This document shows positions 20,080-34,314 of a stretch of 42,404 nt of DNA, in pieces (position 1 is the first letter of the stretch; each line of letters begins with the position of its first letter). The notes below the pieces were generated by a model. The model was given only the letters and a program-made list of their open reading frames with translations, made no database searches and was not told the DNA's origin. Made by a program: the position numbers and the translations under genes. Source of the stretch: Oscillospiraceae bacterium (GTDB lineage: Bacteria; Bacillota; Clostridia; Oscillospirales; Ruminococcaceae); the NCBI GenBank assembly GCA_017465665.1, contig JAFTVU010000070.1:1-42404 (forward strand), in the 5' to 3' direction.

Positions 20080-21312
20080 TTATGCCAGCTCGTAAACCAC
20101 ACCGTTTACGGATATAGCTGTTACCGTGCTGATATCCACTGCGATGCGCTCATCCTTGCCATCAACGTATTTAAAGAAAAATTTCTGTGTATTTCCTGCG
20201 CCTGTTCCCAGCTCAAATTCTGCTCTGATCTCCTTGCCGCTGTCTGTCAGCAGTAGGATATCGTACTGATCAAATTCGCTGCAGATCTTGTCCTCGTTGT
20301 ACAGCGCTTCATAAGCAGGATCGCGGTCGTACTCGATAAAGCCACCTGTGCCAGATACCTCGATATTCTTCACGGTACACTCTATCTCGGAAGCGTCCAG
20401 CATATCGCTCTCGTCCCATACAGTAACAGGCTCCATGTAGGTCTGTGAAACGTCTGCGACAGTGAGCGTCTGCAAAGCGCTCTCGCTGGGAGTATAAACG
20501 AACTCCACGCCCCAGTCAAGCTCGAAATAGCTGATACTGCTCAGATCGATATCAGTGCGCTTGTTGCCGTCATCTCCGTAAAGCGCGGTGTCACACGCAA
20601 GTGTGCTGACATCCTGAACGTTATATATCATCTGACCATCTGCATCCACAAAGTGCTCCCACACGTTATTTTCCTCTCTGAAAAGGATAAGCTCCCTTTC
20701 ATCAAAGAGATCACTGCCCATAATACGCACCGTGCATTCGTCCACGGGAATAGAATATGTCACAGAAAGCATTACGGTAAGATCGCCCTCGTCGTTGACT
20801 ACAACGGAGTAATCATCCAGACCACCGCCAAAGCTCTGCGTATGATCCGTTATCAAATTCAAATCCATAGCCGTTACAAGCTCTTTACCGCTGCCGTTTC
20901 GCAGCATGAAGTTCTTTACAGGCTGTCCGTCTGCTCTTTCAATATCGAAAGAAACACAGATGTTGCTTGCTGTGCCTGTCACACCATTTGGAACAATAAC
21001 GTAATCAGAATCGGATACCTCATATCTGAAATCTGTTATCTCTGAAACGAGATTTCCGCCAACAGTATCGTCCTCAGCGCTGATAAGTCCTCCGAATATC
21101 TTATTGAAGTCTATAAGTCCTGTTGTTGCAGCTGCGGTAACTCCCACCGAGAGAGCCGCAACTGCCGCCGCAGCCACCATCACAGGTCTTGCATTGTATT
21201 TTTTCTTGTTGTTCTCCATATTTTCCGCCTTTCTGAGCACTTTTTCAAGAAACTCTCCGTCACTCGCCGCAGGAGCGACCCTGTCAAAAAAAGCGTTGTA
21301 CCTCTGCTTCAT
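20080..21312 (-). CDS. Membrane-anchored partner (putative anti-sigma) of ECF sigma factor 1
   Basis: This 410-aa single-pass protein has a short cytosolic N-terminus (MKQRYNAFFDRVAP... LEKVLRKAENMENNKKK), one membrane helix at about 46-66 and a large extracytoplasmic beta-rich region of about 340 residues, without a recognised enzyme motif. The sequence just after the helix (TTGLIDFNKIFGG) resembles ESGLINIAGILG in the 26974-28095 protein, so the two are probably paralogues. ATG 21312 overlaps the sigma gene's stop by 4 nt. Gene order and topology support an anti-sigma or regulatory partner (DUF4179-like); a zinc-binding anti-sigma HxxxCxxC motif is not seen. Confidence 0.68.
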   Translation of the reverse strand: MKQRYNAFFDRVAPAASDGEFLEKVLRKAENMENNKKKYNARPVMVAAAAVAALSVGVTAAATTGLIDFNKIFGGLISAEDDTVGGNLVSEITDFRYEVSDSDYVIVPNGVTGTASNICVSFDIERADGQPVKNFMLRNGSGKELVTAMDLNLITDHTQSFGGGLDDYSVVVNDEGDLTVMLSVTYSIPVDECTVRIMGSDLFDERELILFREENNVWEHFVDADGQMIYNVQDVSTLACDTALYGDDGNKRTDIDLSSISYFELDWGVEFVYTPSESALQTLTVADVSQTYMEPVTVWDESDMLDASEIECTVKNIEVSGTGGFIEYDRDPAYEALYNEDKICSEFDQYDILLLTDSGKEIRAEFELGTGAGNTQKFFFKYVDGKDERIAVDISTVTAISVNGVVYELA

Positions 21313-21779
21313 ATCTGATCCTCCTTAAGCAGCATTTCCCTGAGCCGTTCGCGGCCGCGGCAAAGCCTCGTCCTGACCGCAGCAGATGTAAGCCCGCAGA
21401 GCTTTGCTATCTCCTTTACGGAATATCCCTCGTAATAGAACAGGTATATCACGCCTGAATATTCGGGCTTCAACTGCTTTATGCAGTCATACAGACCTGT
21501 ATCTGTGATATCCTCGCTCGGAATATCCATTGTCAGCTCCGCATCTCCCCTGCGCCGACTCTTTTTCAGCAGGTTTTTTGAAAGGTTTATCGCAACACGG
21601 ATGAGCCATGCCTTGACATTCTCATCCGCCGCAAAGCTGTCATCGCAGGTATACAGCTTCACGAAAGCATCCTGCGAGATATCCTCGGCGTCCTCGTAAT
21701 TCTTCACATAATTGAGAGCCACCCTGAATACCGTCAGGCGGTACAGCGAGATATATCGCTCAAGCTCCTGTGTGCTCAC
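21309..21779 (-). CDS. ECF RNA polymerase sigma factor 1
   Basis: 156 aa from GTG 21779, which follows GGGAGGTGA at proper spacing; an in-frame codon at 21833 has no such site. Region 2: YRLTVFRVALNYVKNYEDAE and DISQDAFVKLY (about 11-41). Region 4: YYEGYSVKEIAKLCGLTSAA and RTRLCRGRERLREML. Region 3 is missing, as in ECF (SigW/SigV-like) factors. It is followed at once by its membrane partner. Upstream, GTAACA-N16-TGTCTT matches the signature before the other two ECF operons, which suggests autoregulation. Confidence 0.92.
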   Translation of the reverse strand: MSTQELERYISLYRLTVFRVALNYVKNYEDAEDISQDAFVKLYTCDDSFAADENVKAWLIRVAINLSKNLLKKSRRRGDAELTMDIPSEDITDTGLYDCIKQLKPEYSGVIYLFYYEGYSVKEIAKLCGLTSAAVRTRLCRGRERLREMLLKEDQI

Positions 21780-21819
21780 CCTGTCACCTCCCTTTCCTTT
21801 TCTGAAGCACTTCACTATT

Positions 21820-21847
21820 AAGACAATCCACAATGGCGGAATGTTAC
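21820..21847 (-). promoter_or_regulatory. Putative ECF-type autoregulatory promoter 1
   Basis: On the minus strand GTAACA (21847-21842), exactly 16 nt, TGTCTT (21825-21820), 41 bp before the sigma start. It matches the other two sites at GnAAC/TGT and in spacing, with two differences in the -35 region. Confidence 0.55.
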
Positions 21848-21936
21848 CGTGATGATATCACATTTTCAGAAAAAACGCAACTTTCAGCCTTAAAAACGTT
21901 TTTATCCGAAAATCGACAAAATTTCCTGACAATTTC

Positions 21937-21965
21937 TTGACATATCCTCTTTAATAGTATATAAT
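21937..21965 (+). promoter_or_regulatory. Perfect consensus promoter of the aconitase operon
   Basis: TTGACA (21937-21942), 17-nt spacer, TATAAT (21960-21965): exact consensus, 38 bp upstream of ATG 22004; AAAGGAG serves as ribosome binding site. It predicts strong expression. Confidence 0.92.
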
Positions 21966-22003
21966 AAAAAAGTATCAATTTTTCTATAAAGGAGCAAAAG
22001 ATA

Positions 22004-23932
22004 ATGGGACTTACTTTAACCGAAAAGATCATCAAGGCTCACATCGTTGACGGCGAGATGATAAAGGGTCAGGAGATCGGTCTGAAGATCGACCAGACCC
22101 TCACACAGGACGCTACAGGTACAATGGCATACCTCCAGTTCGAGGCTATGGGCGTTGACCGCGTAAAGACAGAGCGTTCTGTTGCGTATATCGACCACAA
22201 CACTCTCCAGAGCGGCTTCGAGAATGCGGATGACCACCGTTTCATCGGCTCTATCGCAAAGAAGCACGGCATCTGGTTCTCCAGACCCGGTAACGGCATC
22301 TGCCATCAGGTACATCTGGAGCGCTTCGGCAAGCCCGGCAAGACACTCATCGGCTCTGACAGCCATACTCCCACAGGCGGCGGTATCGGTATGCTGGCTA
22401 TGGGCGCAGGCGGTCTGGACGTTGCAGTTGCAATGGGCGGCGGCGCTTACTACATAACAATGCCCAAGGTAGTAAAGATCAACCTCACAGGCAAGCTGAA
22501 TGACTGGGTCTCCGCTAAGGACGTTATCCTTGAAGTTCTGCGTATCCTCTCCGTTAAGGGCGGCGTAGGCAAGGTAATGGAGTACTGCGGCGACGGCGTT
22601 GCAAGCCTCTCCGTTCCCGAGCGTGCTACTATCACAAACATGGGTGCAGAGCTGGGTGCTACAACATCCATCTTCCCCTCTGACGAAACTACACTCCGCT
22701 TCCTGAAGGCTCAGGGTCGTGAGGAGGACTATGTTCCCCTTTCCGCCGACCCCGACGCTGTATATGACGAGGAAGTAAATATCGATCTTTCCAAGCTCGT
22801 TCCTCTGGCAGCTTGTCCTCACTCTCCCGATAATATCAAGACTATCGAGGAGATAGGCGCTATCAAGGTCGATCAGGTATGTATCGGCTCCTGCACAAAC
22901 TCCTCTCTTCAGGATCTTCTGAAAGTAGCTCACATCCTGAAGGGCAAGACAGTTCACCCTGACGTTTCTCTTGCTATCGCTCCCGGCTCCAAGCAGGTGT
23001 TCAACATGATGGCTGAGTGCGGCGCTCTGAGCGATCTTATCGACGCAGGCGCACGTATCCTCGAGAGCGCATGCGGTCCCTGCATCGGCATGGGTCAGTC
23101 TCCCAACTCCAAGGGTATCTCCCTGAGAACATTCAACCGTAACTTTGAAGGCAGAAGCGGTACAAAGGACGGTCAGATCTACCTTGTATCTCCTGAGACT
23201 GCAGCTATCTCCGCTATCACAGGCGTGTTCACAGATCCCAGAACCATCGGCGCTATGCCTCCCTACATCATGCCCGAGAAGTTCCTCATCAACGATAACA
23301 TGGTTACTGCTCCCGCATCCGTTGAGGAAGCTCCCTCCGTTGAGATACTCCGCGGTCCGAACATCAAGCCTTTCCCCGTAAACAGCCCTCTCGCAGAGTC
23401 CATCGAGTGCGATGTTACTCTTAAGGTTGGCGACAACATCACAACAGACCACATCATGCCCGCAGGCGCAAAGATACTTCCCCTGCGCTCCAACATTCCT
23501 GCTATCTCCGAGTACTGCTTCACAGTATGCGACGAGACTTTCCCCAAGAGAGCAAAGGAAGCAGGCAAGGGCATCATCGTTGGCGGTGTGAACTACGGTC
23601 AGGGCTCTTCCAGAGAGCACGCAGCGCTTGCTCCTCTTTACCTCGGTGTAAAGGCTATCATCTGCAAGAGCTTTGCTCGTATCCACAGACAGAACCTCAT
23701 CAACAACGGTATACTGCCTCTCGAATTCGTAAATGAGGCTGATTACGAGAAGATCGCTCAGGGCGATTCCCTCGCTATCGCTGATATCCGCAAGATCGTT
23801 GAAACCGATGGCAAGATCATCGTAGAGAACAAGACCAAGGGCGAGAGCTACGAGGTCAAGTGTGAGCTTTCCGAGCGCGGCAAGGGTATGATCCTTGCAG
23901 GCGGTCTGCTCAATATGACCAAGAACGGTTAA
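22004..23932 (+). CDS. acn: Aconitate hydratase
   Basis: This 642-aa [4Fe-4S] enzyme isomerises citrate to isocitrate. The cluster ligands are C297 (IGSCTNSS), C357 and C360 (SACGPCIGMG). Other family motifs: LIGSDSHTPTGGGIGML near 115, RTFNRNFEGRSG near 377, NITTDHIMPAG, and the swivel-domain NYGQGSSREHAALAPLYLGV near 530. The length (about 640 aa) matches the mitochondrial-like aconitase of anaerobic Firmicutes, not the ~900-aa AcnA/IRP form. It heads acn, unknown, icd, rex under a consensus promoter. With icd it makes 2-oxoglutarate for glutamate synthesis in an incomplete TCA pathway; citrate synthase is not in the window. Confidence 0.95.
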   Translation: MGLTLTEKIIKAHIVDGEMIKGQEIGLKIDQTLTQDATGTMAYLQFEAMGVDRVKTERSVAYIDHNTLQSGFENADDHRFIGSIAKKHGIWFSRPGNGICHQVHLERFGKPGKTLIGSDSHTPTGGGIGMLAMGAGGLDVAVAMGGGAYYITMPKVVKINLTGKLNDWVSAKDVILEVLRILSVKGGVGKVMEYCGDGVASLSVPERATITNMGAELGATTSIFPSDETTLRFLKAQGREEDYVPLSADPDAVYDEEVNIDLSKLVPLAACPHSPDNIKTIEEIGAIKVDQVCIGSCTNSSLQDLLKVAHILKGKTVHPDVSLAIAPGSKQVFNMMAECGALSDLIDAGARILESACGPCIGMGQSPNSKGISLRTFNRNFEGRSGTKDGQIYLVSPETAAISAITGVFTDPRTIGAMPPYIMPEKFLINDNMVTAPASVEEAPSVEILRGPNIKPFPVNSPLAESIECDVTLKVGDNITTDHIMPAGAKILPLRSNIPAISEYCFTVCDETFPKRAKEAGKGIIVGGVNYGQGSSREHAALAPLYLGVKAIICKSFARIHRQNLINNGILPLEFVNEADYEKIAQGDSLAIADIRKIVETDGKIIVENKTKGESYEVKCELSERGKGMILAGGLLNMTKNG

Positions 23933-23946
23933 AGAGGTAAAATATA

Positions 23947-24540
23947 ATGGGATTTTTTTCAAAGCTGTTCGGCAGCAAAGAAAAAAGCAAATTCACATTT
24001 ATAAAGGATATCGCCGCCATAATCTGCGGCGGCGATACCAACGTACTCAAAGCTATAGACGATATGCTCTCCAACCCTAAAAAATATTTTAAGCGTAATT
24101 CGGATCGCTATGATGACCGTGGCATAGACGCTGAAGAAATTCAGGATATCATGGCAGACGGCGACGCGGATGAACAGGCAGAATTATTCTGGCTGGGTAT
24201 GGTGGATGAGCTTATCGAGGGCGGCTATGTGGCAGAATTGGATTATAAATGCTCAAAGGATGAGCTTTTGAATGCTCTTTCAGAGCTGAACTATCCAACG
24301 CTGAAAAACACAGTTGGCAGTACTGATATGCTGAGCAGTGCCGCAGATGATATCAGCACTCTCTGCAATGAGATTTCAAAGCTGATGGCAGGCACAGCGA
24401 AGATAGGCTATATAGATATCGACAGCGACAGCTATCCACTGTTTATCCTCACTGCCGCTAAGGGCAAAAGCCCCGATGAGCTGCTCGATCAATTGACCAC
24501 CATCGCAGGCGATAATCTTTTTAATATCACTACCCCTTAA
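23947..24540 (+). CDS. Hypothetical protein between aconitase and isocitrate dehydrogenase
   Basis: This 197-aa soluble acidic protein starts MGFFSKLFGSKEKSKF, then FIKDIAAIICGGDTNVLKAI, DGDADEQAELFWLGMVDELIEGGYVAELDYKCSKDE, and a C-terminal YPLFILTAAKGKSPDELLDQL. The WLGMVDEL...AELDYK pattern is reminiscent of DUF6630, but this is a weak recollection. No enzyme motif or membrane segment is seen. AGAGGTAAAATATA precedes ATG 23947, 14 nt after acn; icd begins 28 nt later, so it belongs to the operon. Codon choice appears less biased than in acn and icd, which fits a lower-expressed or later-inserted gene (visual impression). Confidence 0.75.
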   Translation: MGFFSKLFGSKEKSKFTFIKDIAAIICGGDTNVLKAIDDMLSNPKKYFKRNSDRYDDRGIDAEEIQDIMADGDADEQAELFWLGMVDELIEGGYVAELDYKCSKDELLNALSELNYPTLKNTVGSTDMLSSAADDISTLCNEISKLMAGTAKIGYIDIDSDSYPLFILTAAKGKSPDELLDQLTTIAGDNLFNITTP

Positions 24541-24568
24541 ATAATATATGATCGAAAGGAATACTAAA

Positions 24569-25783
24569 ATGGCTGAAAAGATTCAGATGACCACCCCTCT
24601 CGTTGAGATGGACGGCGACGAAATGACCAGAATCATCTGGAAGATGATCAAGGATATCCTCATCAACCCTTATGTTGACCTCAAGACAGAGTACTACGAT
24701 CTCGGTCTGGTACACAGAAATGAGACTGACGATCAGGTAACCATCGACTCCGCTAACGCTACAAAGAAGTACGGTGTTGCAGTTAAGTGCGCTACCATCA
24801 CCCCCAACGCTCAGCGTATGACAGAGTATGATCTCAAGGAGATGTGGAAATCCCCCAACGGTACTATCCGTGCTATCCTCGATGGCACAGTTTTCCGTGC
24901 TCCCATCATCTGCAAGGGTATCAATTCCCTCATCCCCACATGGACAAAGCCCATCACCATCGCACGTCACGCTTACGGTGATGTTTATAAGAACAGTGAG
25001 ATGAAGGTAGCTGACGGCTCCAAGTGCGAGCTCATCGTAACAGATAAGGACGGCAACGAGACACGCCAGCTCATCCACACATTCAAGGGATCTGACGGTA
25101 TCATTCAGGGTCTGCACAACATCAACGGCTCTATCGCTTCCTTTGCAAGAGCATGCTTCAACTTTGCTCTCGATACAAAGCAGGATCTCTGGTTCGCTAC
25201 AAAGGATACCATCTCCAAGCAGTATGACCACACATTCAAGGATATCTTCGCTGATATCTACGAGACTGAATACAAGGCAAAGTTCGAGGCGGCAGGCATC
25301 GAATACTTCTACACACTCATTGATGACGCTGTTGCTAGAGTGGTTCGCTCTGAGGGCGGCTACATCTGGGCTTGCAAGAACTACGACGGCGACGTTATGT
25401 CCGACATGGTCGCTACAGCATTCGGCTCTCTCGGTATGATGACCTCCGTTCTGGTATCTCCCGATGGCGTATACGAATACGAGGCTGCCCACGGCACAGT
25501 AACACGTCACTACTACAAGCACCTCAAGGGCGAGGAGACCTCCACAAACTCCGTTGCAACCATCTTCGCATGGACAGGCGCTCTCAAGAAGAGAGGCGAG
25601 CTGGATAACATCCCTGCTCTGTCCGAGTTCGCAGAGAAGCTGGAAAAGGCTACCGTACAGACTATCGAAGAGGGCGTAATGACAGGCGATCTGTACGTGC
25701 TCTCCACACTGGAAAACAAGCGCAAGGTAAATACTCAGGACTTCCTCACAGAGATCAATGCCAGACTTCAGGCAATGATGTAA
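24569..25783 (+). CDS. icd: NADP-dependent isocitrate dehydrogenase
   Basis: 404 aa from ATG 24569, chosen because GAAAGGAA precedes it and the family starts near [21 protein letters not shown]; a codon at 24548 lies too far upstream. This is the eukaryote-like homodimeric ICDH subfamily: [83 protein letters not shown] and the coenzyme segment [14 protein letters not shown]. It decarboxylates isocitrate to 2-oxoglutarate, making NADPH. It is third gene of the acn operon. Confidence 0.95.
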
Positions 25784-25801
25784 TTTTCTTGAGAAAGATG
25801 G

Positions 25802-26458
25802 ATGAAAATGCAGAAGAACAACATATCAAACTCCGTAATACGCAGACTTCCTCGCTACTACCGCTTTCTCGGCGGACTACAGCGCCAGAACATCGCTAAG
25901 ATATCCTCGCGCGAGCTTTCTGAAATGATGCGTCTTACCGCTTCTCAGATAAGGCAGGATCTCAACTGCTTCGGCGGCTTTGGACAGCAGGGCTATGGCT
26001 ACAATGTAGCAGAGCTCCGCAAGGAGATAGCACATATCCTCGGACTTGATGTATCGCAGAAGATAATTCTGATAGGTGCAGGAAATCTGGGCCGCGCTAT
26101 CACCATGCATGTGGATTTCGAGAAATACGGTTATGAGCTGGCTGGCATTTTTGACAGCAGCATAGCTATGGAGAACATCGAAATAGCAGGTATTAAGATA
26201 ATGCATACAAATCGTCTGGAAGAGTTCTGCAAAAAGGAAAAACCATCTATGGCAGTGCTCTGCATCCCCAGAACAGGCGCAAAGGAGACCGTAGAGAAGC
26301 TCATGGAGCTTGGTATCAATGCATTCTGGAACTTCTCCCATTATGATATCAACTACGATTTTCCCGATGTACACGTTGAAAACGTACACCTTACAGACAG
26401 CCTGATGACTCTCTCCTACGCAGCTAAAGGCACAAATGAGCCAATAGGCGAAGAATGA
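25802..26458 (+). CDS. rex: Redox-sensing transcriptional repressor Rex
   Basis: This 218-aa protein has an N-terminal winged helix (residues 10-75: VIRRLPRYYRFL, ISSRELSEMMRLTASQIRQD, FGGFGQQGYGYNV) and a Rossmann NAD(H)-binding domain with GAGNLG (92-97) and a C-terminal swapped helix region. Rex senses the NADH/NAD+ ratio and represses fermentation and hydrogenase genes in Clostridia. Translation may start at ATG 25802 or 25808; neither has a strong ribosome binding site. It closes the acn operon, coupling 2-oxoglutarate synthesis to a redox regulator; likely targets include the hydrogenase locus at the left of this window (inference). Confidence 0.94.
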   Translation: MKMQKNNISNSVIRRLPRYYRFLGGLQRQNIAKISSRELSEMMRLTASQIRQDLNCFGGFGQQGYGYNVAELRKEIAHILGLDVSQKIILIGAGNLGRAITMHVDFEKYGYELAGIFDSSIAMENIEIAGIKIMHTNRLEEFCKKEKPSMAVLCIPRTGAKETVEKLMELGINAFWNFSHYDINYDFPDVHVENVHLTDSLMTLSYAAKGTNEPIGEE

Positions 26459-26467
26459 TAGTGAAGC

Positions 26468-26500
26468 GCACCCCCGACAATAGATCGGGGGTGCTGTTTT
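26468..26500 (+). terminator. Terminator of the acn-icd-rex operon
   Basis: Stem GCACCCCCGA (26468-26477) / TCGGGGGTGC (26485-26494) with a 7-nt loop, then TGTTTT. Confidence 0.9.
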
Positions 26501-26547
26501 ATAGCGTATAGGGCATCTTGCTATGCATAATATAGCGTAAAATCCGA

Positions 26548-26575
26548 ATAATCGACCTATCCCCCGCATAATAAT
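26548..26575 (+). promoter_or_regulatory. Putative sigma-E (or sigma-G) type promoter of spoIIID
   Basis: GAATA (ATA at 26548-26550), 16 nt, then CATAATAAT (26567-26575). This resembles the sporulation sigma-E pattern ATA-N16-CATACAnT, which drives spoIIID in Bacillus; sigma-G promoters are similar, so the factor cannot be fixed by reading. Confidence 0.45.
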
Positions 26576-26625
26576 GTGAAAAAAGGAAACGTCCAAAACG
26601 GCATTTAATTGGGGGTGCAGACAGA

Positions 26626-26922
26626 TTGAAGACAAAACAGGTATCCATTGAGGATTCTACGGAAGAAAGATGTGTCATACTCGGACACTACATAGTCGAA
26701 AACAAAGCCACCGTGCGAAGCACAGCAAAAAAATTCGGAATAAGCAAAAGCACGGTGCATCAGGATATCACAGCAAAGCTTCTGCAGGTAAACAGGCAGC
26801 TTCACGATGAGGTGAAGCAGGTGCTTGACAAGAATAAGCAGGAGCGACATCTGAGAGGTGGTCAGGCTACAAAAGAAAAATATGCCGCTATCTCCGTCAC
26901 CAAGCAAAAGCGCAGTATATAA
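26626..26922 (+). CDS. spoIIID: Sporulation transcriptional regulator SpoIIID
   Basis: This 98-aa protein starts at TTG 26626, preceded by GGGGGTG. It contains the SpoIIID signature: RCVILGHYIVENKATVRSTA, KKFGISKSTVHQDITAKL as the HTH (about 34-51), HLRGGQATKEKY at the C-terminal basic region. In Bacillus and Clostridium SpoIIID tunes mother-cell gene expression under sigma-E. Its presence, with a sigma-E-like promoter, suggests that the organism keeps at least part of the sporulation programme. Monocistronic, with its own terminator. Confidence 0.95.
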   Translation: MKTKQVSIEDSTEERCVILGHYIVENKATVRSTAKKFGISKSTVHQDITAKLLQVNRQLHDEVKQVLDKNKQERHLRGGQATKEKYAAISVTKQKRSI

Positions 26923-26928
26923 AAGCTG

Positions 26929-26967
26929 CAACACCCTGCCGTGAGCTGACACTACGGCAGGGTGTTG
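26929..26967. terminator. Terminator of spoIIID, probably bidirectional
   Basis: A 14-bp perfect stem (CAACACCCTGCCGT 26929-26942 / 26954-26967) with an 11-nt loop, followed by TTGTTATTATTT. On the minus strand it lies just past the stop of the 26974-28095 gene and is followed by CAGCTTTTATA. Confidence 0.85.
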
Positions 26968-26973
26968 TTGTTA

Positions 26974-28095
26974 TTATTTGACTGTTACAATGTCTGTTGT
27001 ACCATCGGGAGCTGCGATCTCAATGATAACACTTTCGGCTTCGTCAATATCCACAGGCTCAAAGCTAAGCTCGCAGATAAAATGATTCGACAGAATAAAT
27101 TCATCATCTTGGCTTGCATTTCTGTTCATTAGCTCCACCGCTCTGAAATCTGCGGAGTAGGGGATCTCGTTGCCATCTACGATAAGCTTTACGGGTGAAG
27201 AAGCCTCGGGTTCCTCGCAAGCGAGTGTAAGATCAAGTCCCAGCGCATTCCTGCCGTATAAAACTCCGCTGTACCAGATAAAATCTTTTCCGCCGTTTTC
27301 CTCGATCATGCTTTCGGGTACATAATATTCCAGATATACTCTTGAGCGGTAATCGCCGCCGCAGAATCTGTCAACATTATATTCCAGTCCGTTACGGAGA
27401 AGTGTTTTTTCCAGCTTTATGGTGTTTTCATCGCTTATAACATCACTTTGCGGTTTGAAATCCAATCTGATGTCCGTATTGATCCTTTCGGTAGTACCGT
27501 TTATATCAAAAGAAGCATTTACAATACGCAGTGATACCAAGCCATCATTGTCTGCTGCGGCATTCGGCCAATGCGCAGGCAGCTTTGCTTTTACAAAATG
27601 TACCGTACTTCCGTCATCCAATGTATGCCGAACACCCGAATATTGTTCGATCGCATAGCTGCTGATATCCTCAGTATTCTCATCGACAACAACCACGCCG
27701 AGAGAAACGCCGCTGCAATCGGAATATTCTTCAGATGTCCTGACCTCAAGCAGCGCGAAATAATCGTATGTGTCGCCAAGAAAAGCAGTTAACCCAACAG
27801 ATATCACATCATCATCCGCAAAAACAGACGGTGTCTGATACTCTCCGCTCTCGACCTTTGATTCCGATATCTTATCACCGAAGCCGATACCAAGAATACC
27901 TGCTATGTTTATCAATCCGCTTTCAGCAGCAACTGTTACGGCACAGACCGAGCATATTGCAGCTGCAGCGATCATAATAGCTGTTCTGCCAATAGTGCGT
28001 CCGTGCCTTGCAGTGCTTCCTATGTTATCATACAGCCTGCTTTTCCACTCATGCGGTGTCTTTGTTTTTGCAAACAGTTCGTATAATTCCTTCAT
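26974..28095 (-). CDS. Membrane-anchored partner (putative anti-sigma) of ECF sigma factor 2
   Basis: This 373-aa protein has a cytosolic N-terminus (MKELYELFAKTKTPHEWKSR), one membrane helix (about 37-56, IMIAAAAICSVCAVTVAAES) and a beta-rich extracytoplasmic part of about 310 residues with immunoglobulin-like character. The region after the helix, SGLINIAGILGIGFGDKI, parallels that of the 20080-21312 protein; both resemble DUF4179-type partners. It overlaps the sigma gene by 4 nt. A role in holding the sigma factor inactive at the membrane is inferred from order and topology. Confidence 0.68.
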   Translation of the reverse strand: MKELYELFAKTKTPHEWKSRLYDNIGSTARHGRTIGRTAIMIAAAAICSVCAVTVAAESGLINIAGILGIGFGDKISESKVESGEYQTPSVFADDDVISVGLTAFLGDTYDYFALLEVRTSEEYSDCSGVSLGVVVVDENTEDISSYAIEQYSGVRHTLDDGSTVHFVKAKLPAHWPNAAADNDGLVSLRIVNASFDINGTTERINTDIRLDFKPQSDVISDENTIKLEKTLLRNGLEYNVDRFCGGDYRSRVYLEYYVPESMIEENGGKDFIWYSGVLYGRNALGLDLTLACEEPEASSPVKLIVDGNEIPYSADFRAVELMNRNASQDDEFILSNHFICELSFEPVDIDEAESVIIEIAAPDGTTDIVTVK

Positions 28096-28580
28096 AACCG
28101 ATCCTCCTCTGAAAGTAATTCCTTTAACATATCCCTGCCGCGCTTCAGCCTGCTTTTAACAGTATTCTGCGTTACCTTAAGCAGACATGATAATTCTTTC
28201 ACGGAATAGCCTGTGTAATAATGCAGATATATTACCTCACGGTATAGAGGCGGAAGCTCCATCACACGGGATATAAGACTGCGATCATGCTCGTCCTCGT
28301 AAAAAGACGTTACAGATTCCAGAGATTCTGTCTGATGACGGCTTCGAAAGCGATAGTGGTTTTTACATTCATTGATCGCTACTCGGATAAGCCACGCTTT
28401 GAGATGTTCACCATCGTTTTCAAGCAGCCGCCTATTTTTATATAGCTTCAGAAAAACGTTCTGGTAACAGTCCTCGGCGTCCTGTCTGTTACCGAGGCGT
28501 ACCAGACAAAGACCTGTCACCATATCCGAATATTTTTCCACAGCCTGTGAAAACAGGCGTTCTGTATCTTCAACCGACAT
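28092..28580 (-). CDS. ECF RNA polymerase sigma factor 2
   Basis: This 162-aa protein has region 2 (YSDMVTGLCLVRLGNRQDAE, DCYQNVFLKLYKN) and region 4 (LPPLYREVIYLHYYTGYSVK, ELSCLLKVTQNTVKSRLKRG). It is of the same clade as factor 1 by eye (YxGYSVKE in both). ATG 28580 follows GAGAGGAG. Co-transcribed with the 373-aa membrane partner. GCAACC-N16-TGTATT lies 25 bp upstream of the start. Confidence 0.93.
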   Translation of the reverse strand: MSVEDTERLFSQAVEKYSDMVTGLCLVRLGNRQDAEDCYQNVFLKLYKNRRLLENDGEHLKAWLIRVAINECKNHYRFRSRHQTESLESVTSFYEDEHDRSLISRVMELPPLYREVIYLHYYTGYSVKELSCLLKVTQNTVKSRLKRGRDMLKELLSEEDRL

Positions 28581-28604
28581 TTCATCAACTCCTCTCTGTT
28601 AAGC

Positions 28605-28632
28605 AATACACCGCAGAGGATCAAAAGGTTGC
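28605..28632 (-). promoter_or_regulatory. Putative ECF-type autoregulatory promoter 2
   Basis: On the minus strand GCAACC (28632-28627) followed by TTTT, total spacer 16 nt, TGTATT (28610-28605). GCAACCTTTT-like -35 elements are typical of ECF promoters. It starts directly after the terminator at 28645-28673. Confidence 0.65.
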
Positions 28633-28644
28633 ATATTTCCGCAC

Positions 28645-28673
28645 AAAAAAAACAGCCCCCTTATCGGGGGCTG
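28645..28673 (-). terminator. Terminator of the surface-protein gene
   Basis: On the minus strand, stem CAGCCCCC/GGGGGCTG (28673-28666 / 28660-28653), 5-nt loop, then eight Ts (28652-28645). Confidence 0.93.
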
Positions 28674-28694
28674 CCTGATCGAGCAATTATAAAA

Positions 28695-29438
28695 TTACTT
28701 TCTCTTCTTGGAAACCAGCATAGCGCCGCCAGCGAGAACAGCGAGACCAGCAACAGCTGCAACGCCCTCTACGCCTGTTTCAGGAGACTGCTTGTCGCCT
28801 GTTGTGGGAGCTGTAACATCTACAGCAGCATCGGAGCCTGCATCAGCAGAACCAAGACCCTCAACTGTGAAAGCAACAGCGATGGAATCTGTGGGGTATG
28901 CACCGGAGTATGTAGGAACATCTGTATTCCAGATGTTGATAGCGTTGATCTTGATGTACTCATCGCCCTCTACTGCAGGGTTAGCGATAGTAGCTGTTAC
29001 ATTACCGTCAACGATGATGTCGAGGGATGTGATAGTAGCAGCACCTGCGGGAATGTCTGTGGAAACGCCCAGTGTGTTGAATGCGGAAGCGCCGTCAACA
29101 GACCAGTCAAAGCCGTCCATAGCAACTGTATATGTACCGTCGCCGTCAACAGTAGCGTCTGTGTACTCAACAGGCAGTGTGTAGCCGTTGATATCCCAGT
29201 CAAAGTTGTCAGCGTACTCGGGGAATGTCTCCTCGGGAGCATCGCCGCTGCCCCATACGATAGCGTAATCAAAGTAAGGTGTAGCTGCACCGTAGGATGC
29301 CTCTGTCCAGTCATTACGGAAAGAGTAGGGTGTTGTCTGCCACTGGATGTAAGCATTGTAAGCGCTTGCGGTAGCAGCGAGTGTAGCAGAAACTGCTGCA
29401 GCTGCTGTTACAGCAGCAAGGATCTTAGAAACCTTCAT
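28695..29438 (-). CDS. Secreted cell-wall-anchored surface protein (SPETG sorting signal)
   Basis: 247 aa from ATG 29438, preceded by GGAGG. Residues 1-26 are a signal peptide (MKVSKILAAVTAAAAVSATL, cleavage likely after ATASA). The mature part (27-200) is acidic, rich in Asp, Thr, Gly and aromatic residues and probably beta-sandwich; no catalytic motif is recognised. A PTTGDKQ linker leads to SPETG (218-222), a hydrophobic helix and KKRK, the complete sortase-type anchor layout. It may bind carbohydrate or act as a coat protein; neither is proven. It has a near-consensus promoter with a GTGCAC inverted repeat in the early transcript and a strong terminator, so it is likely abundant and monocistronic. 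Confidence 0.85.
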   Translation of the reverse strand: MKVSKILAAVTAAAAVSATLAATASAYNAYIQWQTTPYSFRNDWTEASYGAATPYFDYAIVWGSGDAPEETFPEYADNFDWDINGYTLPVEYTDATVDGDGTYTVAMDGFDWSVDGASAFNTLGVSTDIPAGAATITSLDIIVDGNVTATIANPAVEGDEYIKINAINIWNTDVPTYSGAYPTDSIAVAFTVEGLGSADAGSDAAVDVTAPTTGDKQSPETGVEGVAAVAGLAVLAGGAMLVSKKRK

Positions 29439-29469
29439 TGTAAAAACCTCCATAAATTTAAATCGTACC

Positions 29470-29487
29470 GTGCACATATCTGTGCAC
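29470..29487 (-). promoter_or_regulatory. GTGCAC inverted repeat in the surface-protein leader
   Basis: GTGCAC (29470-29475), six bases, GTGCAC (29482-29487), about 7-24 nt after the expected transcription start. Because each half is itself a palindrome, it may be a repressor site or an RNA hairpin at the 5' end of the mRNA. Confidence 0.4.
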
Positions 29488-29500
29488 TATTACATCTATA

Positions 29501-29529
29501 ATTATATAACAATTTCCATCCTATTTCAA
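29501..29529 (-). promoter_or_regulatory. Sigma-A promoter of the surface-protein gene
   Basis: On the minus strand TTGAAA (29529-29524), 17-nt spacer, TATAAT (29506-29501). Confidence 0.8.
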
Positions 29530-29726
29530 GGTGCAATTATAGACAAATCGCCTAAATGATTTCTGTATAAATTGCACTCAATATTTTAAAACAAAAACCG
29601 TTAGTCACCACCGCGCAAAGCCGCTCTGCAAAAGGCTGCAGAGCATTTTCAAGCCTGTTACATCCTGTTTACACAGATCGTTAGCAATTATAAATGTAAT
29701 CGTTTCATTTTGTCATATTATGCATA
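29530..29726. other. Intergenic region between surface-protein promoter and the 1307-aa gene
   Basis: No gene seen. It contains a perfect 8-bp hairpin GCTCTGCA (29623-29630) / TGCAGAGC (29637-29644), which may end transcripts of the 29727-33650 gene, but no clear T-run follows on the minus strand. Confidence 0.35.
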
Positions 29727-32700
29727 TCAGCTCAGATATCTCGATCTGATACAATAGGTATCGCCCTCCTTCCATATCAGCCAGCCGAGACCGTTATATG
29801 CCGAGATATCCGTCCAGCCGAAGCCGCCTGTATCCCCCATCATGCCCGTGTATCTCACAAGGGCGCTGATATCCGCTATCCAAGCCTCGCCCAGAGCTCT
29901 TTCCTCGGCGGTGACATTACGCGAAGCATCTGCTTCCGCTATCGGCGTAAGGCTGACCTCCACATCCTTGTACTGGAACATATTGAATGTACGCTGTCCG
30001 TCATAGCCGCAGAGATCGGACAGCATATCTGCTGCCATTCTTTCGGCATATACCTCAACATCATCCTCACCGACAATTTTCAGCGCAAGTTGCAGCCGTG
30101 AGCCCGTGGGAACGGTATACGCGCTGTCATCATAGCCGAACAGCTCGCTGTGCAGCGCGGCATACTCATTCGTAGTAAGACGCTCGAAATCCGTGCTCTC
30201 ATCCCAGCCGTATCGGCGGAAATCGGGCATACCGTTCACAAGCTCAAGATACTGACCGCGTGAGCAGATGTAATCAATATAGTAACCCTCTGTTTCATCG
30301 TGCTTTATCGCGGCAGTTATCTCGGCTGTGCAGTTATCGGTGGCAACAGGATATTCATACAGCCAGCATCCGCCGTCATAGTCGCTGTAATCCATTCCGA
30401 AACCTGTATGCACGCCATGATAATCAAAGGAAGTAGGCATGATCTCCGCCTTTTCAAGCCACTCGTCACACAGCTCCTGCTGACGTATCCAGTAGCCGTG
30501 TACCTCCTCAAAGAAGTAGAAGCTGTAGCCGATATGCACCATCTTCTCCTCTGTGCCATCATTGTCAAAGTCATTATAATAGATTTTGCCGCTCATGCCA
30601 GGATCAAAAATATCATAATTACAGCATTTGTGCTCATACTCGTCATCAGTACCATACGGCACATCTCCCACAACATATCTTCCGCCGTCAATGTTGCCGC
30701 CGTCAGGCTCGCCCTCCTGCACGAATTCCACCATCACGAGCGTTGCATCCTCAGGCTCTCCGTTTACAAAGAACCAGCCCTTTCTGTCACCCTCCACATA
30801 CAGATGTGCGTCTATCGTTTCCAGCCCGTTCAGGCGCACATCCGTTATCTCATCAGCATAATGCGCGTCGTTTCCGATGTACTCATACACATGTATACTG
30901 CGTTCCTCGCCCTTTCCTGCCAGCAGGAGCAGCTCCTCCGCTCCGTCAAGGTCAAGATCGTGATCTGTGTGGCTTATCAGCGTGTAGCCCTGAGGCTCTA
31001 AAAAATCACGCTCGATTATATCAACGGATGTCTGCGGCTTGTTCAACAGACCCTCAAAGTTCCTTTTGTACTCGTTTCCGAGATGAGCCCTGATCTGAGT
31101 TATCAGCCACACGCCCTCAAAGCATTCAAGCCTCATTACGGAATGCTCATAGATATAGCCACCCATTCCGTCATGGCAGGCGGTACACAGCAGATAATCC
31201 ACATATTCTCCCTCCTCGTAATCCAGCACGCCCACAAGGTCTGTCCATGCAGCGGCGCTCTCATCGCTTCCGTCAGACAGTGCATAGGTCTTTCCATCAT
31301 GATAACGCAGGCGGCTTTCGATATGCTCCTTTAAGGTAATATCGTCATGATAGCTGCCGTCCAGCCACGGTGCTTCCTCAGGGTCTTCTGCCGCAAAGTA
31401 CACATACTCGCCATCCTCATAAGCATACACATCCTGTGCAAAGGTATAATCGTAAAGGTCAGAAATGCTGTCATGCATGCTATGTTTTGTCGTGAAATAT
31501 CTTTTATCAAGGGCAATGTAGTTCTCATCGTATCTGTCGCTCTCATCTCCCTCGGGCACCTTATGCATTATCTGATGCAGCATGACCGCCGCATTGAACC
31601 GCATCTGTCCCAGCCAGAGCAGGTCCTCGTTAGTCAGATCGACCTCCTCGTGACCGTGATCGCCTGTGCAGTAGGGATATTTTATTGCCGTGCCGTCAAC
31701 CATACTACCATAGCCGAAGCCTGTGGAATCCGTGGAGATAAGCTCACCGTTTTCAAGCACGTAGATATCTTCGCGATACAGCCATTGTCCTGCCTTTTCG
31801 GAATACGAGCCATAGCATGCCGTTGCTGTCAGCCGTTCTCCGCTTCCTCTGGGCACGATCCCCATCAGGGCGATCTCCTCCGTACCTGCCATTACCTTAT
31901 CAGGCACGGAAAGCAGCGTTTCCCTGCTGCCGTCAGGCTGCAGCCTATGGATATATCCCTCGGCGCTTGAGATATACAATGCCGTTCCGTCGCAGCAATC
32001 GTTCAGATTTCCGCAGTCACTCAGTGAGTACAGCAGTCTGAAGCCGCTTTCATCGCGGTAGTAATATTCAAAATACTGAGCATCCAGCGCCATTTTTATC
32101 CTGTACCATTTAACCCAGTATTCACCGCCGTCATCCGTCTGTACATACAGTGACCAGTCAGTGCAGATATCAAGTCCGCCCTCGTCTATCGCCTGCTGTG
32201 CGGCTTCGCGGTAGCTTTCATCCTCAGCGTTTTCCAGTGCATTCCGCTGCACCTGCTCCTGATACTCCAGCGCACCCGCACTTATCTCATCGATAAAAGC
32301 AAGCACCTCAGGCTCGTCGCCTGTATAATGCTTCATGCGCTCCCATTCATCGTCAGTTACAACTTCGGCGCTCTCCTCTACCTCATTGAGCGAGCTCTTG
32401 TAGCAGATCTGTCCGTCAAGATCGGCCAGGATATGCTCATTGTCATAAAGATACAGCAAGCCCTCCAGAAGCTCAGCCATGCTGCCCTTCATGCCTGACA
32501 GCTTGTATTCATAGCGCGCACCGCTTGCAATATCCTGACAGAACACTGTATCAGTGCCATCGGAATTTCTCCTGTACCACACTACACGCTCCCCGTCATA
32601 GTCTGTCAGATTGAAGCGAAATACATCGCAGTGCGTAGCTATCCTGTCAAGACCGCCCATCGCACCCTTTACGCGTATAACAGCCTTACCATCCACATCT

Positions 32701-33650
32701 GTCGCATGGCAGTCGCCTGTCGTGAAAGTGGTTATTATCACAGTATCCGTTACTATATCACGCACACTCAGCTCACCGCCGTTGTCATGGTCAAGCGCAA
32801 GTATCGTCATGTTGCCGTTATCATCTGTATAGGTGATCTCGTTAGTTCCCGTAACGACAGGTACACTTGCAGGGGCGTTCAGAGCTCTCGGGGCAAACTC
32901 AAGCACGAAAGTATTATCCATACCGTATGCATTGATATCCATAGCCATGAAGAAGCCCTCATCCTCCGTATACAAGTACCAGATGATGTAATCCTCCGTC
33001 AGCACAGGCTCTGTATTAAATATGAGCTGCTCACCGTTCAGCGAAAACTCGCCCACGGATATCATATACTCCCCGTCACCTGTATAGCGGTAGACCTCAT
33101 ATCGCGTGCAGGATGTGGTCATCACATCATGAGCATATATAAAGTACCACTCATCCTCGCCGCGAAGCGTAAAGCACGGAGTTATTACTGTGGAATCAAG
33201 CGCTGCTTTCTGCTCATCTGTAAGATAAGACAGCTCCTCCGCGTCAATAGGCAGCTCAGGCGGAACAGGCTCTTCAAAATACGATTCCTCCACCCTGCCA
33301 TTCTCGCCGAGAGGTCTTTCTGCAAATCGCGATATCATGATGCACTCTGCCTGCTCTGTGCTCTCTCCGCTCTCGGAGGTAGCCTCCACGGTAACGGTAT
33401 CCGCAGGCAGCAGGATATCTCCACGAACAAAGAACGCTCCGCCTATGCACAGAACAAGCGCAGCAGCAGCCGCACCTATACCAAGCCACATACCCGATTT
33501 GCTTCGCTCGGGCTCGTCAGACGGAGTATATTCCGTGAAATCACTCTCAGTAAGCGATGTTGGAGAATGCTTTGAAAAGCATTCTGCCGCTTCGTTTGTG
33601 TACTTATCGTCTATTCCGTCAGTAACATTCCTCCAGAATTGCTCGTTCAT
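29727..33650 (-). CDS. Giant single-pass membrane protein paired with ECF sigma factor 3
   Basis: This 1307-aa protein has a short cytosolic N-terminus (residues 1-52, MNEQFWRNVTDGIDDKYTNE), one membrane helix (about 53-75) and some 1230 extracytoplasmic residues. The first half has many repeating short strand segments with YR, GD and DG turns (for example RYTGDGEYMISVGEF, YRDESGFRLLYSLSDC), as in beta-propellers of DUF5050 type. The second half has VRFNAAVMLHQI-like helical and mixed stretches with D-rich turns (HTDHDLDLDGAEELLLLAGK, NDFDNDGTEEKMV is similar) that look like FG-GAP/VCBS or calcium-binding loops. It overlaps the sigma gene by 4 nt, in the position of an anti-sigma. It is far larger than usual; a ligand-binding surface sensor is inferred. 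Confidence 0.68.
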   Translation of the reverse strand: MNEQFWRNVTDGIDDKYTNEAAECFSKHSPTSLTESDFTEYTPSDEPERSKSGMWLGIGAAAAALVLCIGGAFFVRGDILLPADTVTVEATSESGESTEQAECIMISRFAERPLGENGRVEESYFEEPVPPELPIDAEELSYLTDEQKAALDSTVITPCFTLRGEDEWYFIYAHDVMTTSCTRYEVYRYTGDGEYMISVGEFSLNGEQLIFNTEPVLTEDYIIWYLYTEDEGFFMAMDINAYGMDNTFVLEFAPRALNAPASVPVVTGTNEITYTDDNGNMTILALDHDNGGELSVRDIVTDTVIITTFTTGDCHATDVDGKAVIRVKGAMGGLDRIATHCDVFRFNLTDYDGERVVWYRRNSDGTDTVFCQDIASGARYEYKLSGMKGSMAELLEGLLYLYDNEHILADLDGQICYKSSLNEVEESAEVVTDDEWERMKHYTGDEPEVLAFIDEISAGALEYQEQVQRNALENAEDESYREAAQQAIDEGGLDICTDWSLYVQTDDGGEYWVKWYRIKMALDAQYFEYYYRDESGFRLLYSLSDCGNLNDCCDGTALYISSAEGYIHRLQPDGSRETLLSVPDKVMAGTEEIALMGIVPRGSGERLTATACYGSYSEKAGQWLYREDIYVLENGELISTDSTGFGYGSMVDGTAIKYPYCTGDHGHEEVDLTNEDLLWLGQMRFNAAVMLHQIMHKVPEGDESDRYDENYIALDKRYFTTKHSMHDSISDLYDYTFAQDVYAYEDGEYVYFAAEDPEEAPWLDGSYHDDITLKEHIESRLRYHDGKTYALSDGSDESAAAWTDLVGVLDYEEGEYVDYLLCTACHDGMGGYIYEHSVMRLECFEGVWLITQIRAHLGNEYKRNFEGLLNKPQTSVDIIERDFLEPQGYTLISHTDHDLDLDGAEELLLLAGKGEERSIHVYEYIGNDAHYADEITDVRLNGLETIDAHLYVEGDRKGWFFVNGEPEDATLVMVEFVQEGEPDGGNIDGGRYVVGDVPYGTDDEYEHKCCNYDIFDPGMSGKIYYNDFDNDGTEEKMVHIGYSFYFFEEVHGYWIRQQELCDEWLEKAEIMPTSFDYHGVHTGFGMDYSDYDGGCWLYEYPVATDNCTAEITAAIKHDETEGYYIDYICSRGQYLELVNGMPDFRRYGWDESTDFERLTTNEYAALHSELFGYDDSAYTVPTGSRLQLALKIVGEDDVEVYAERMAADMLSDLCGYDGQRTFNMFQYKDVEVSLTPIAEADASRNVTAEERALGEAWIADISALVRYTGMMGDTGGFGWTDISAYNGLGWLIWKEGDTYCIRSRYLS

Positions 33651-34192
33651 ACCTCCACCCCCTTTTCTTCAAGAAAGCTTTTAAGAGCCTTGCGGCTGCG
33701 GAGCAGACTACTCTTCACCGCCGATACGCTCATACCCGTATTGTCCGCAATGTCATTCACGCTCATATTGTAGAAATACCGCGCTGTGAACACTATCCTG
33801 TTCTTTCTTTTACAGCTGCCGAGAAACTCGTTGATGAGCGCCGAGATACGCCCACTATCATAACGCTGCTCCACTGTTTCCTTGTCTGAAAACAGCTCGG
33901 AAAGCTCCTCCGCCTGCTCATGTGCCGAGCGGCGGCGCACCGCGTCATAGGCATTCAGCGCGGTATTTCGTACTATCCTGCAAAGGTATCCGCATAGCGA
34001 TTCGGGACGCTTTGGCGGTATCGCGTTCCACAGCTTTATGTAGGAGCTGCTGACGCATTCCTCCGCGTCCTCCCTGTTACTGAGTATGCCATAGGCTATC
34101 CTGCCACATAGTGCGCCATACTTCCGCTCCACCTCGGCAAGCCCCTCCTCAGAGCGCGAAAAGAACAGCTCTATTATCTTTGTATCTTCCAT
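33647..34192 (-). CDS. ECF RNA polymerase sigma factor 3
   Basis: This 181-aa protein has region 2 (YGALCGRIAYGILSNREDAE, ECVSSSYIKLWNAIPPKRPE) and region 4 (RKNRIVFTARYFYNMSVNDI, ADNTGMSVSAVKSSLLRSRK). It differs from factors 1 and 2 in sequence but shares the upstream GCAACC-N16-TGTTAT element. It starts the operon with the 1307-aa membrane partner, 4-nt overlap. Confidence 0.92.
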   Translation of the reverse strand: MEDTKIIELFFSRSEEGLAEVERKYGALCGRIAYGILSNREDAEECVSSSYIKLWNAIPPKRPESLCGYLCRIVRNTALNAYDAVRRRSAHEQAEELSELFSDKETVEQRYDSGRISALINEFLGSCKRKNRIVFTARYFYNMSVNDIADNTGMSVSAVKSSLLRSRKALKSFLEEKGVEV

Positions 34193-34238
34193 ATATCCGA
34201 CCCCCGTTCATGAGAGGAATTTATGTCCCTCATTAAGT

Positions 34239-34266
34239 ATAACAGATTACGGAACAGGATGGTTGC
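34239..34266 (-). promoter_or_regulatory. Putative ECF-type autoregulatory promoter 3
   Basis: On the minus strand GCAACC (34266-34261), 16-nt spacer, TGTTAT (34244-34239), 47 bp before the sigma start and just after the terminator at 34274-34314. Confidence 0.62.
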
Positions 34267-34273
34267 TTTTTCC

Positions 34274-34314
34274 GAAAAATATTTCAGCCGCATCGGCTGC
34301 ACCCGATACGGCTG
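34274..34314 (-). terminator. Terminator of the DUF4173 operon
   Basis: A 12-bp stem with one wobble pair (34303-34314 / 34285-34296), 6-nt loop, then on the minus strand AAATATTTTTC (34284-34274). Confidence 0.8.

Follow-up and report, generated by a model that had tools for sequence, protein, structure and literature searches.

Predicted self-activated promoters of three ECF sigma operons in an Oscillospiraceae genome, and a palindrome near the predicted transcription start in one sigma clade

Introduction

Genes for extracytoplasmic function (ECF) sigma factors are typically co-transcribed with an anti-sigma gene and positively autoregulated, from promoters whose hallmark is an AAC in the −35 element and a CGT in the −10 element (PMC8103513). 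An established way of finding such promoters is to look for motifs that are over-represented ahead of ECF genes (PMC3817407), and a 2020 start-site study of C. difficile describes the consensus for its three ECF sigmas as still to be identified (PMC7438776). Here we analyze three ECF operons, with sigma genes that we call ECF1, ECF2 and ECF3, on the minus strand of a 42,404-nucleotide stretch of DNA from an Oscillospiraceae bacterium (assembly GCA_017465665.1, contig JAFTVU010000070.1, positions 1 to 42,404; hereafter the window). Each operon pairs a sigma gene with the gene for a putative membrane anti-sigma factor, and we consider it highly probable, on the strength of sequence comparisons, that each is transcribed from a promoter read by its own ECF sigma.

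The closest described systems are the autoregulated ECF operons (group IV), which likewise combine a sigma2-sigma4 protein, an overlapping gene for a downstream membrane protein and an AAC/GT promoter (PMC8103513, PMC3817407). The window departs from them in that each of its three −10 boxes has TGT in place of CGT, in having partner proteins without an above-cut-off Pfam domain, and, for one clade, in a palindrome close to the predicted +1. The ECF1 partner also recalls Sigma-V/RsiV of B. subtilis through a weak match to DUF4179, a domain named for RsiV (PMC8844934). Unlike in that system, the match falls below the curated cut-off, and our scan of the ECF1 partner returned no other domain. RsiV also has a lysozyme-binding domain. 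Finally, Sigma-P of B. thuringiensis (ECF265), whose regulon includes penicillin-binding proteins and beta-lactamases, resembles our system in the AACA of its −35 consensus, but its −10 element is variable with a conserved TA; the comparison covers the promoter and regulon as described there (PMC8791391).

Results and Discussion

The original prediction placed one promoter-like site upstream of each ECF gene on the minus strand, at 21847-21820, 28632-28605 and 34266-34239, and all three are present at these positions with 16 nt between their boxes. The ECF1 site consists of a −35-like box GTAACA (21842..21847) and a −10-like box TGTCTT (21820..21825); the ECF2 site combines GCAACC (28627..28632) with TGTATT (28605..28610), and the ECF3 site combines GCAACC (34261..34266) with TGTTAT (34239..34244). 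From the −10 box to the start codon the distance is 40 nt for ECF1 (GTG at 21779), 24 nt for ECF2 (ATG at 28580) and 46 nt for ECF3 (ATG at 34192); an alternative, longer ECF1 frame with a TTG start at 21833 would overlap the ECF1 promoter. Sites 2 and 3 had also been said to lie behind terminators, and terminator-like hairpins do stand just upstream of them on the same strand (28650..28676 and 34285..34314, respectively).

The products of the three sigma genes (ECF1, 21309..21779, 156 aa; ECF2, 28092..28580, 162 aa; ECF3, 33647..34192, 181 aa) all match Sigma70_r2, Sigma70_r4_2 and TIGR02937 above cut-off, the longer ECF1 frame scoring 84.6 bits for TIGR02937 against a cut-off of 42.9. Each sigma gene overlaps by 4 nt a downstream gene whose product has an N-terminal hydrophobic segment. 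These partners are putative membrane anti-sigma factors of 410 aa for ECF1 (20080..21312) and 373 aa, with no Pfam family, for ECF2 (26974..28095), and a large membrane protein of 1307 aa, with no Pfam or NCBIfam family, for ECF3 (29727..33650). The same arrangement recurs among 102 sigma genes (score above 60 and at least 120 aa): 96 are followed by an open reading frame, 71 of them overlapping, and all 96 downstream products have a hydrophobic segment within their first 130 residues. Relatives of ECF3 likewise have long partner frames, which reach the end of the locus.

The count of the motif G(C/T)AAC(C/A)-N16-TGTnnT in the window (4 matches against 0.26 expected, a number reached in none of 100 shuffles) is circular, since three of those four matches had supplied the pattern; the fourth, at 30697-30670, lies inside the 1307-aa gene. 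An independent test comes from the rest of the draft genome that holds the window (2.87 Mb in 155 contigs, 97.9% complete, 8.8% contaminated). With the window's sites excluded, G-N-R-A-C-N-N16-(C/T)GT stands upstream of 9 of the 15 other ECF genes, against a mean of 0.19 and a maximum of 2 in 200 mononucleotide shuffles. We also compared spacers among upstream regions assigned by best score (113 in all: 52 ECF1, 27 ECF2 and 34 ECF3), again with mononucleotide shuffles as the control. Genus-wide, the ECF1 clade (n = 48) has 36 promoters at N16, none at N15 or N17, 8 at N18 and 4 at N21, with a shuffle mean of 0.6; the peak is modest for the ECF2-like genes (n = 24), with 6 at N16 and 3 at N15. 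A promoter of this form precedes 15 of the 17 scored ECF genes of the genome, the window's three included, and the trio is a sample of a larger ECF family in this genome rather than a special group. Left out of these 17 are lower-scoring sigmas of the genome (for example L040, L042 and L050) and L045, which has an internal stop and is included in the 18 own-genome ECF genes of the spacer test.

Comparison with relatives gave clear conservation for ECF1 and ECF2 and partial conservation for ECF3. The pattern G-N-R-A-C recurs across the ECF1 clade, and GTAACA itself in the closest relative, L122. The one close orthologue of ECF2, L092 (75% identity), retains both boxes and the spacer as GCAACC-N16-TGTATT. 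For ECF3 we inspected 11 of 12 relatives of at least 54% identity, leaving out G007:C6 (59% identity), and 6 of the 11 (L011, L063, L064, L065, L069 and L071) have GTAACC, followed after 15 or 16 nt by a −10 element reading TGTTAT, AGTTAT, AGTCAT, TGTCTT or TGTCAT. These relatives suggest that the core of the ECF3 −10 element may be GT(T/C)(A/T)TA, one base downstream of the box given above. An own-type promoter, with AAC, GT and a fixed spacer, is kept across the clade for ECF1, in one orthologue for ECF2 and partly for ECF3.

Promoter letters also vary together with sigma sequence. In Mantel tests r was 0.41 over the 70 of the 102 sigma genes for which a regular expression found a promoter (with G-N-R-A-C and N-GT built in as requirements and N16 favoured) and 0.65 over 39 genes of the ECF1 group, with neither value reached in 1000 permutations; over the 688 ECF1-group pairs below 60% identity it was 0.59. 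Such covariation is expected if each sigma reads its own promoter, shared ancestry contributing.

From these features we infer that each sigma uses the promoter ahead of its own gene, that its partner acts as an anti-sigma factor and that the signal comes from the envelope. The partner would hold the sigma at the membrane and keep the operon nearly silent until an envelope signal freed the sigma, which would then bind G(C/T)AAC(A/C)-N16-TGT and amplify its own operon together with a few target genes. As a promoter finding this is the textbook self-activated ECF promoter, ordinary for the sigma family. Its value lies in confirming the ordinary rule, as far as sequence comparison can, in an Oscillospiraceae genome rich in ECF sigmas, and in supplying a testable promoter for each sigma.

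Several results weigh against self-activation. The motif alone is weak: exact matches in the whole genome number 38, where the reversed pattern gives 17, and of the 37 that were placed, 30 overlap an open frame of at least 90 codons on either strand, as judged by crude gene calling, with 7 uncovered. GTAACC is lacking in the other five inspected relatives of ECF3 (L062, L066, L067, L068 and L070), and the ECF3-like genes (n = 34) show no N16 peak, with 6 at N12, 4 at N13, 6 at N15 and 3 at N16. The Pfam scan of the three partners returned no domain above cut-off, the DUF4179 match of the ECF1 partner (E 0.0082) reaching 17.0 bits against a Pfam gathering score of 30.1. The Mantel tests, for their part, were uncorrected for shared ancestry, which accounts for part of the covariation.

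The open-frame overlaps and the loss of the ECF3 site in almost half of its inspected relatives, together with a pattern built after the fact from three sites, would suit the alternative that the sites are chance matches and that the operons use other promoters, for example of the sigma-70 type. A scan for sigma-70 promoters did return one match ahead of ECF1 (9/12, 21990-21961) and another ahead of ECF2 (10/12, 28714-28686). However, that scan stayed at chance level overall (23 found against 19.9 expected), its match for ECF2 falls upstream of the terminator, and for ECF3 it lists nothing in the 200 nt before the gene; the independent N16 peak and the intact ECF2 site in L092 likewise speak against chance. 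We regard this alternative as very improbable. For ECF1 and ECF2, conservation in relatives and covariation lend good support to self-activation as originally proposed; for ECF3 the support is weaker. The invariant 16-nt spacing that had been claimed along with it holds for the window's three sites and is sharp in the ECF1 clade; because the ECF3 relatives vary and show no N16 peak, neither TGT nor the 16-nt spacer is fixed in the ECF3 lineage.

The genome-wide scan had been suggested as a means of defining the regulon. Only 5 of the 37 placed matches are ECF upstream regions; among the 30 that overlap open frames, an ECF site (L002) and a site at a lipoprotein-like gene (L018) still face a start, and the 38th match, on contig C111, is identical in sequence to a site on contig C48. 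Taken alone, the motif is mostly noise at the genome scale, and we rejected the scan for this purpose: a motif drawn from three sites is too weak a guide to a regulon.

The original prediction further read the shared signature as a sign of possible cross-talk, in which the three sigmas would read each other's promoters in one linked envelope response. Core letters are indeed common to all three sites, and ECF2 and ECF3 have the same −35 box, GCAACC, and differ at 2 of the 12 box positions (ECF1 and ECF2 differ at 3, ECF1 and ECF3 at 4). However, what is shared is the generic ECF core, and the same core is found at most scored ECF genes of the genome. The sigmas are 39% (ECF1-ECF2), 23% (ECF1-ECF3) and 22% (ECF2-ECF3) identical over their aligned parts, and promoter letters follow sigma sequence. 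Moreover, Rhodius et al. 2013 report little cross-talk between ECF subgroups and some where promoters are similar (PMC3817407). A cross-regulated trio therefore seems rather unlikely, with the pair ECF2/ECF3 the clearest remaining candidate for cross-talk.

For possible target genes we searched a 442-kb sample made up of 20 stretches and the window. A relaxed form of the motif gave 169 matches, 7 of which lie between crudely called genes and face a start within 150 nt. Three of the 7 precede the window's own ECF genes. Two others have GCAACC-N16 promoters: one (L290:7458-7485, on C47) stands before a gene for a VanY-type D,D-carboxypeptidase (E 1.9e-36), and one (L291:9756-9783, on C48) before a gene whose product has a lipoprotein-like N-terminus and a VWA domain (E 1.9e-9). 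The remaining two (in L299 and at 7128-7101 of the window) have poorer boxes. The VanY-type and VWA genes count as no more than candidate members of an envelope regulon. The proposed role in envelope stress is suggested by the hydrophobic segment of the partners and by the similar promoter at the VanY-type gene.

A further element distinguishes the ECF1 clade. A near-palindrome, TGAAGTGCTTCA (21803..21814, minus strand), lies 5 nt past the ECF1 −10 box, near the predicted transcription start; it has one T-G pair at its centre, and the closest relative, L122, has the perfect 12-bp palindrome TGAAGCGCTTCA. Among the 39 ECF1-clade upstream regions left after near-duplicates were removed from 42 ECF1-group rows scoring above 110, 25 contain a perfect palindrome of at least 10 bp, the window's ECF1 not among them, against a mean of 3.2 and a maximum of 9 in 300 dinucleotide shuffles. 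A promoter was found by regular expression in 35 of the 42 rows (7 had none), and 33 of these 35 have a near-palindrome of 12-16 bp with its left end 4-7 nt past the −10 box, the best centre being taken in a 26-nt stretch with no shuffle control; the offset is exactly 5 nt in 21 of 34 scored promoters. Transcription from ECF promoters starts about 7 nt past the −10 box; if that holds here, the palindrome begins at about +1. Examples near the predicted start include L124, L131, L137 and L159.

Within the clade symmetry is kept and letters change, with middles that include ACGT, GATC, GTAC, GGCC and CGCG. One version recurs exactly: the 13-mer TGAAAGCGCTTTT occurs six times in the 2.87-Mb draft, always just upstream of an ECF1-group sigma gene and in the same orientation, and the six genes differ in their −35 and −10 boxes. 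One-mismatch copies number 12, against 2 for the reversed pattern with up to one mismatch; all 12 overlap frames open for more than 150 codons, and two of them belong to the C48/C111 gene. The 10-mer core AAAGCGCTTT is not confined to ECF genes: in the 442-kb sample it stands at 3 other places, which give 6 counts over both strands, as against 0 for the reversed pattern and 0-2 in Markov sequences. A loose inverted pattern was uninformative (674 matches against 702 in the control).

Outside the clade the signal is fainter. Perfect palindromes of at least 10 bp occur in 8 of 23 ECF2-like upstream regions (shuffle mean 2.4, largest 7) and in 7 of 32 ECF3-like ones (mean 2.9, largest 8), again by dinucleotide shuffling; a number of these are mere A/T tracts, and the GAA...TTC type is uncommon among them. 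Among 77 named relatives (80 loci minus 3 of the same genus or taken as such), 16 have a near-palindrome 4-8 nt past a −10-like hexamer, against 4.5 in mononucleotide shuffles (largest 11 of 100), although several of the 16, such as L242 and L264, look accidental. The left end is GAA in 8 of the 16, compared with 31 of 460 in the shuffles. ECF genes of distant Bacillota (L194, L210, L211, L223, L250 and L251) have TGAA...TTCA palindromes with differing middles shortly after −10-like sequences. Searches of open-licence PMC papers, judged by the search listings, found none describing a palindrome near an ECF +1.

We suggest tentatively, at chances a little short of even, that the palindrome is a second regulatory element, joined to the autoregulatory promoter in many ECF operons of the clade and in scattered ones elsewhere in Bacillota, with a length of 12-16 bp, a start at about +1, and symmetry kept as letters change. 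If so, it would form a common control layer over sigmas with diverged −35 and −10 boxes: a shared switch over sigmas that otherwise seem insulated, which a specialist would not expect. Such an element could take the form of an operator recognised by its sequence or of a structure at the mRNA 5' end.

As an operator, the palindrome would be the target of a repressor dimer, such as one of the LacI type, that blocks initiation at many ECF operons at once. The palindromes are even, with CG as the innermost pair in 24 of 32, the identical TGAAAGCGCTTTT recurs at six paralogues whose boxes differ, and the genome has three LacI-type genes above cut-off. On the other hand, palindromes elsewhere in the genome differ in their middles (GATC, GTAC, GTGC), lengths range from 12 to 16 bp, and the window's ECF1 operon has two genes, with no regulator gene among them. 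The cre and cre-var sites of CcpA are likewise palindromes near Gram-positive promoters, and the cre-var spacer is variable, but the cre-var core is TGTAAA/TTTACA where ours is TGAAAG/CTTTCA (PMC5263246). In the 442-kb sample the strict cre consensus is not enriched (2, with 1 reversed and 0-3 Markov), and in the draft genome the exact TGAAAGCGCTTTT is found only at ECF genes. The loose cre form is slightly enriched in the sample (14, against 6 reversed and 4-12 Markov), and TGTAAA half-sites exceed their reversed control (361 against 204), which leaves room for a CcpA-like regulator. We take an operator to be possible, if on the doubtful side.

Alternatively, the palindrome may work at the RNA level: the extreme 5' end of the sigma mRNA would pair with itself over a short stretch and so influence stability or translation. 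This would suit a left end that stays 4-7 nt past the −10 box in 33 of 35 promoters while lengths differ, the like placement in several distant Bacillota, and the departures from pairing among 23 distinct palindromes, which are of the G-T type in 11 cases and of the A-C type in 4, as RNA pairing tolerates. The G-T excess is small, however, and uncorrected for ancestry, and the distant set is even (7 G-T, 7 A-C). The innermost letters, which could not pair in a hairpin, are self-complementary as well, and predicted single-strand folding is weak, at 0 to −3.4 kcal/mol, a range that weakens the case for a stable RNA hairpin. An action in RNA thus appears unlikely.

An imperfect inverted repeat, ATGAGGGA...TCCTCTCAT (34210..34233, minus strand), was read by eye in the predicted ECF3 leader. 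In L078, L079 and L082, too, hairpin-like arms seen by eye come after the −10 region, as AGGGA/TCCCT and AGAGA/TCTCT variants.

Two neighbours of the ECF operons complete the picture of the window. A perfect (12/12) sigma-70 promoter, TTGACA-N17-TATAAT at 21937-21965, is divergent from ECF1 and faces the gene at 22004, which we take, from the look of its protein, to be aconitase-like. Just upstream of ECF2, on the same strand, lies a gene for an NPXTG-anchored surface protein (NF033846; 28695-29477), and by eye the end of a similar gene seems to precede the ECF2 orthologue in L092.

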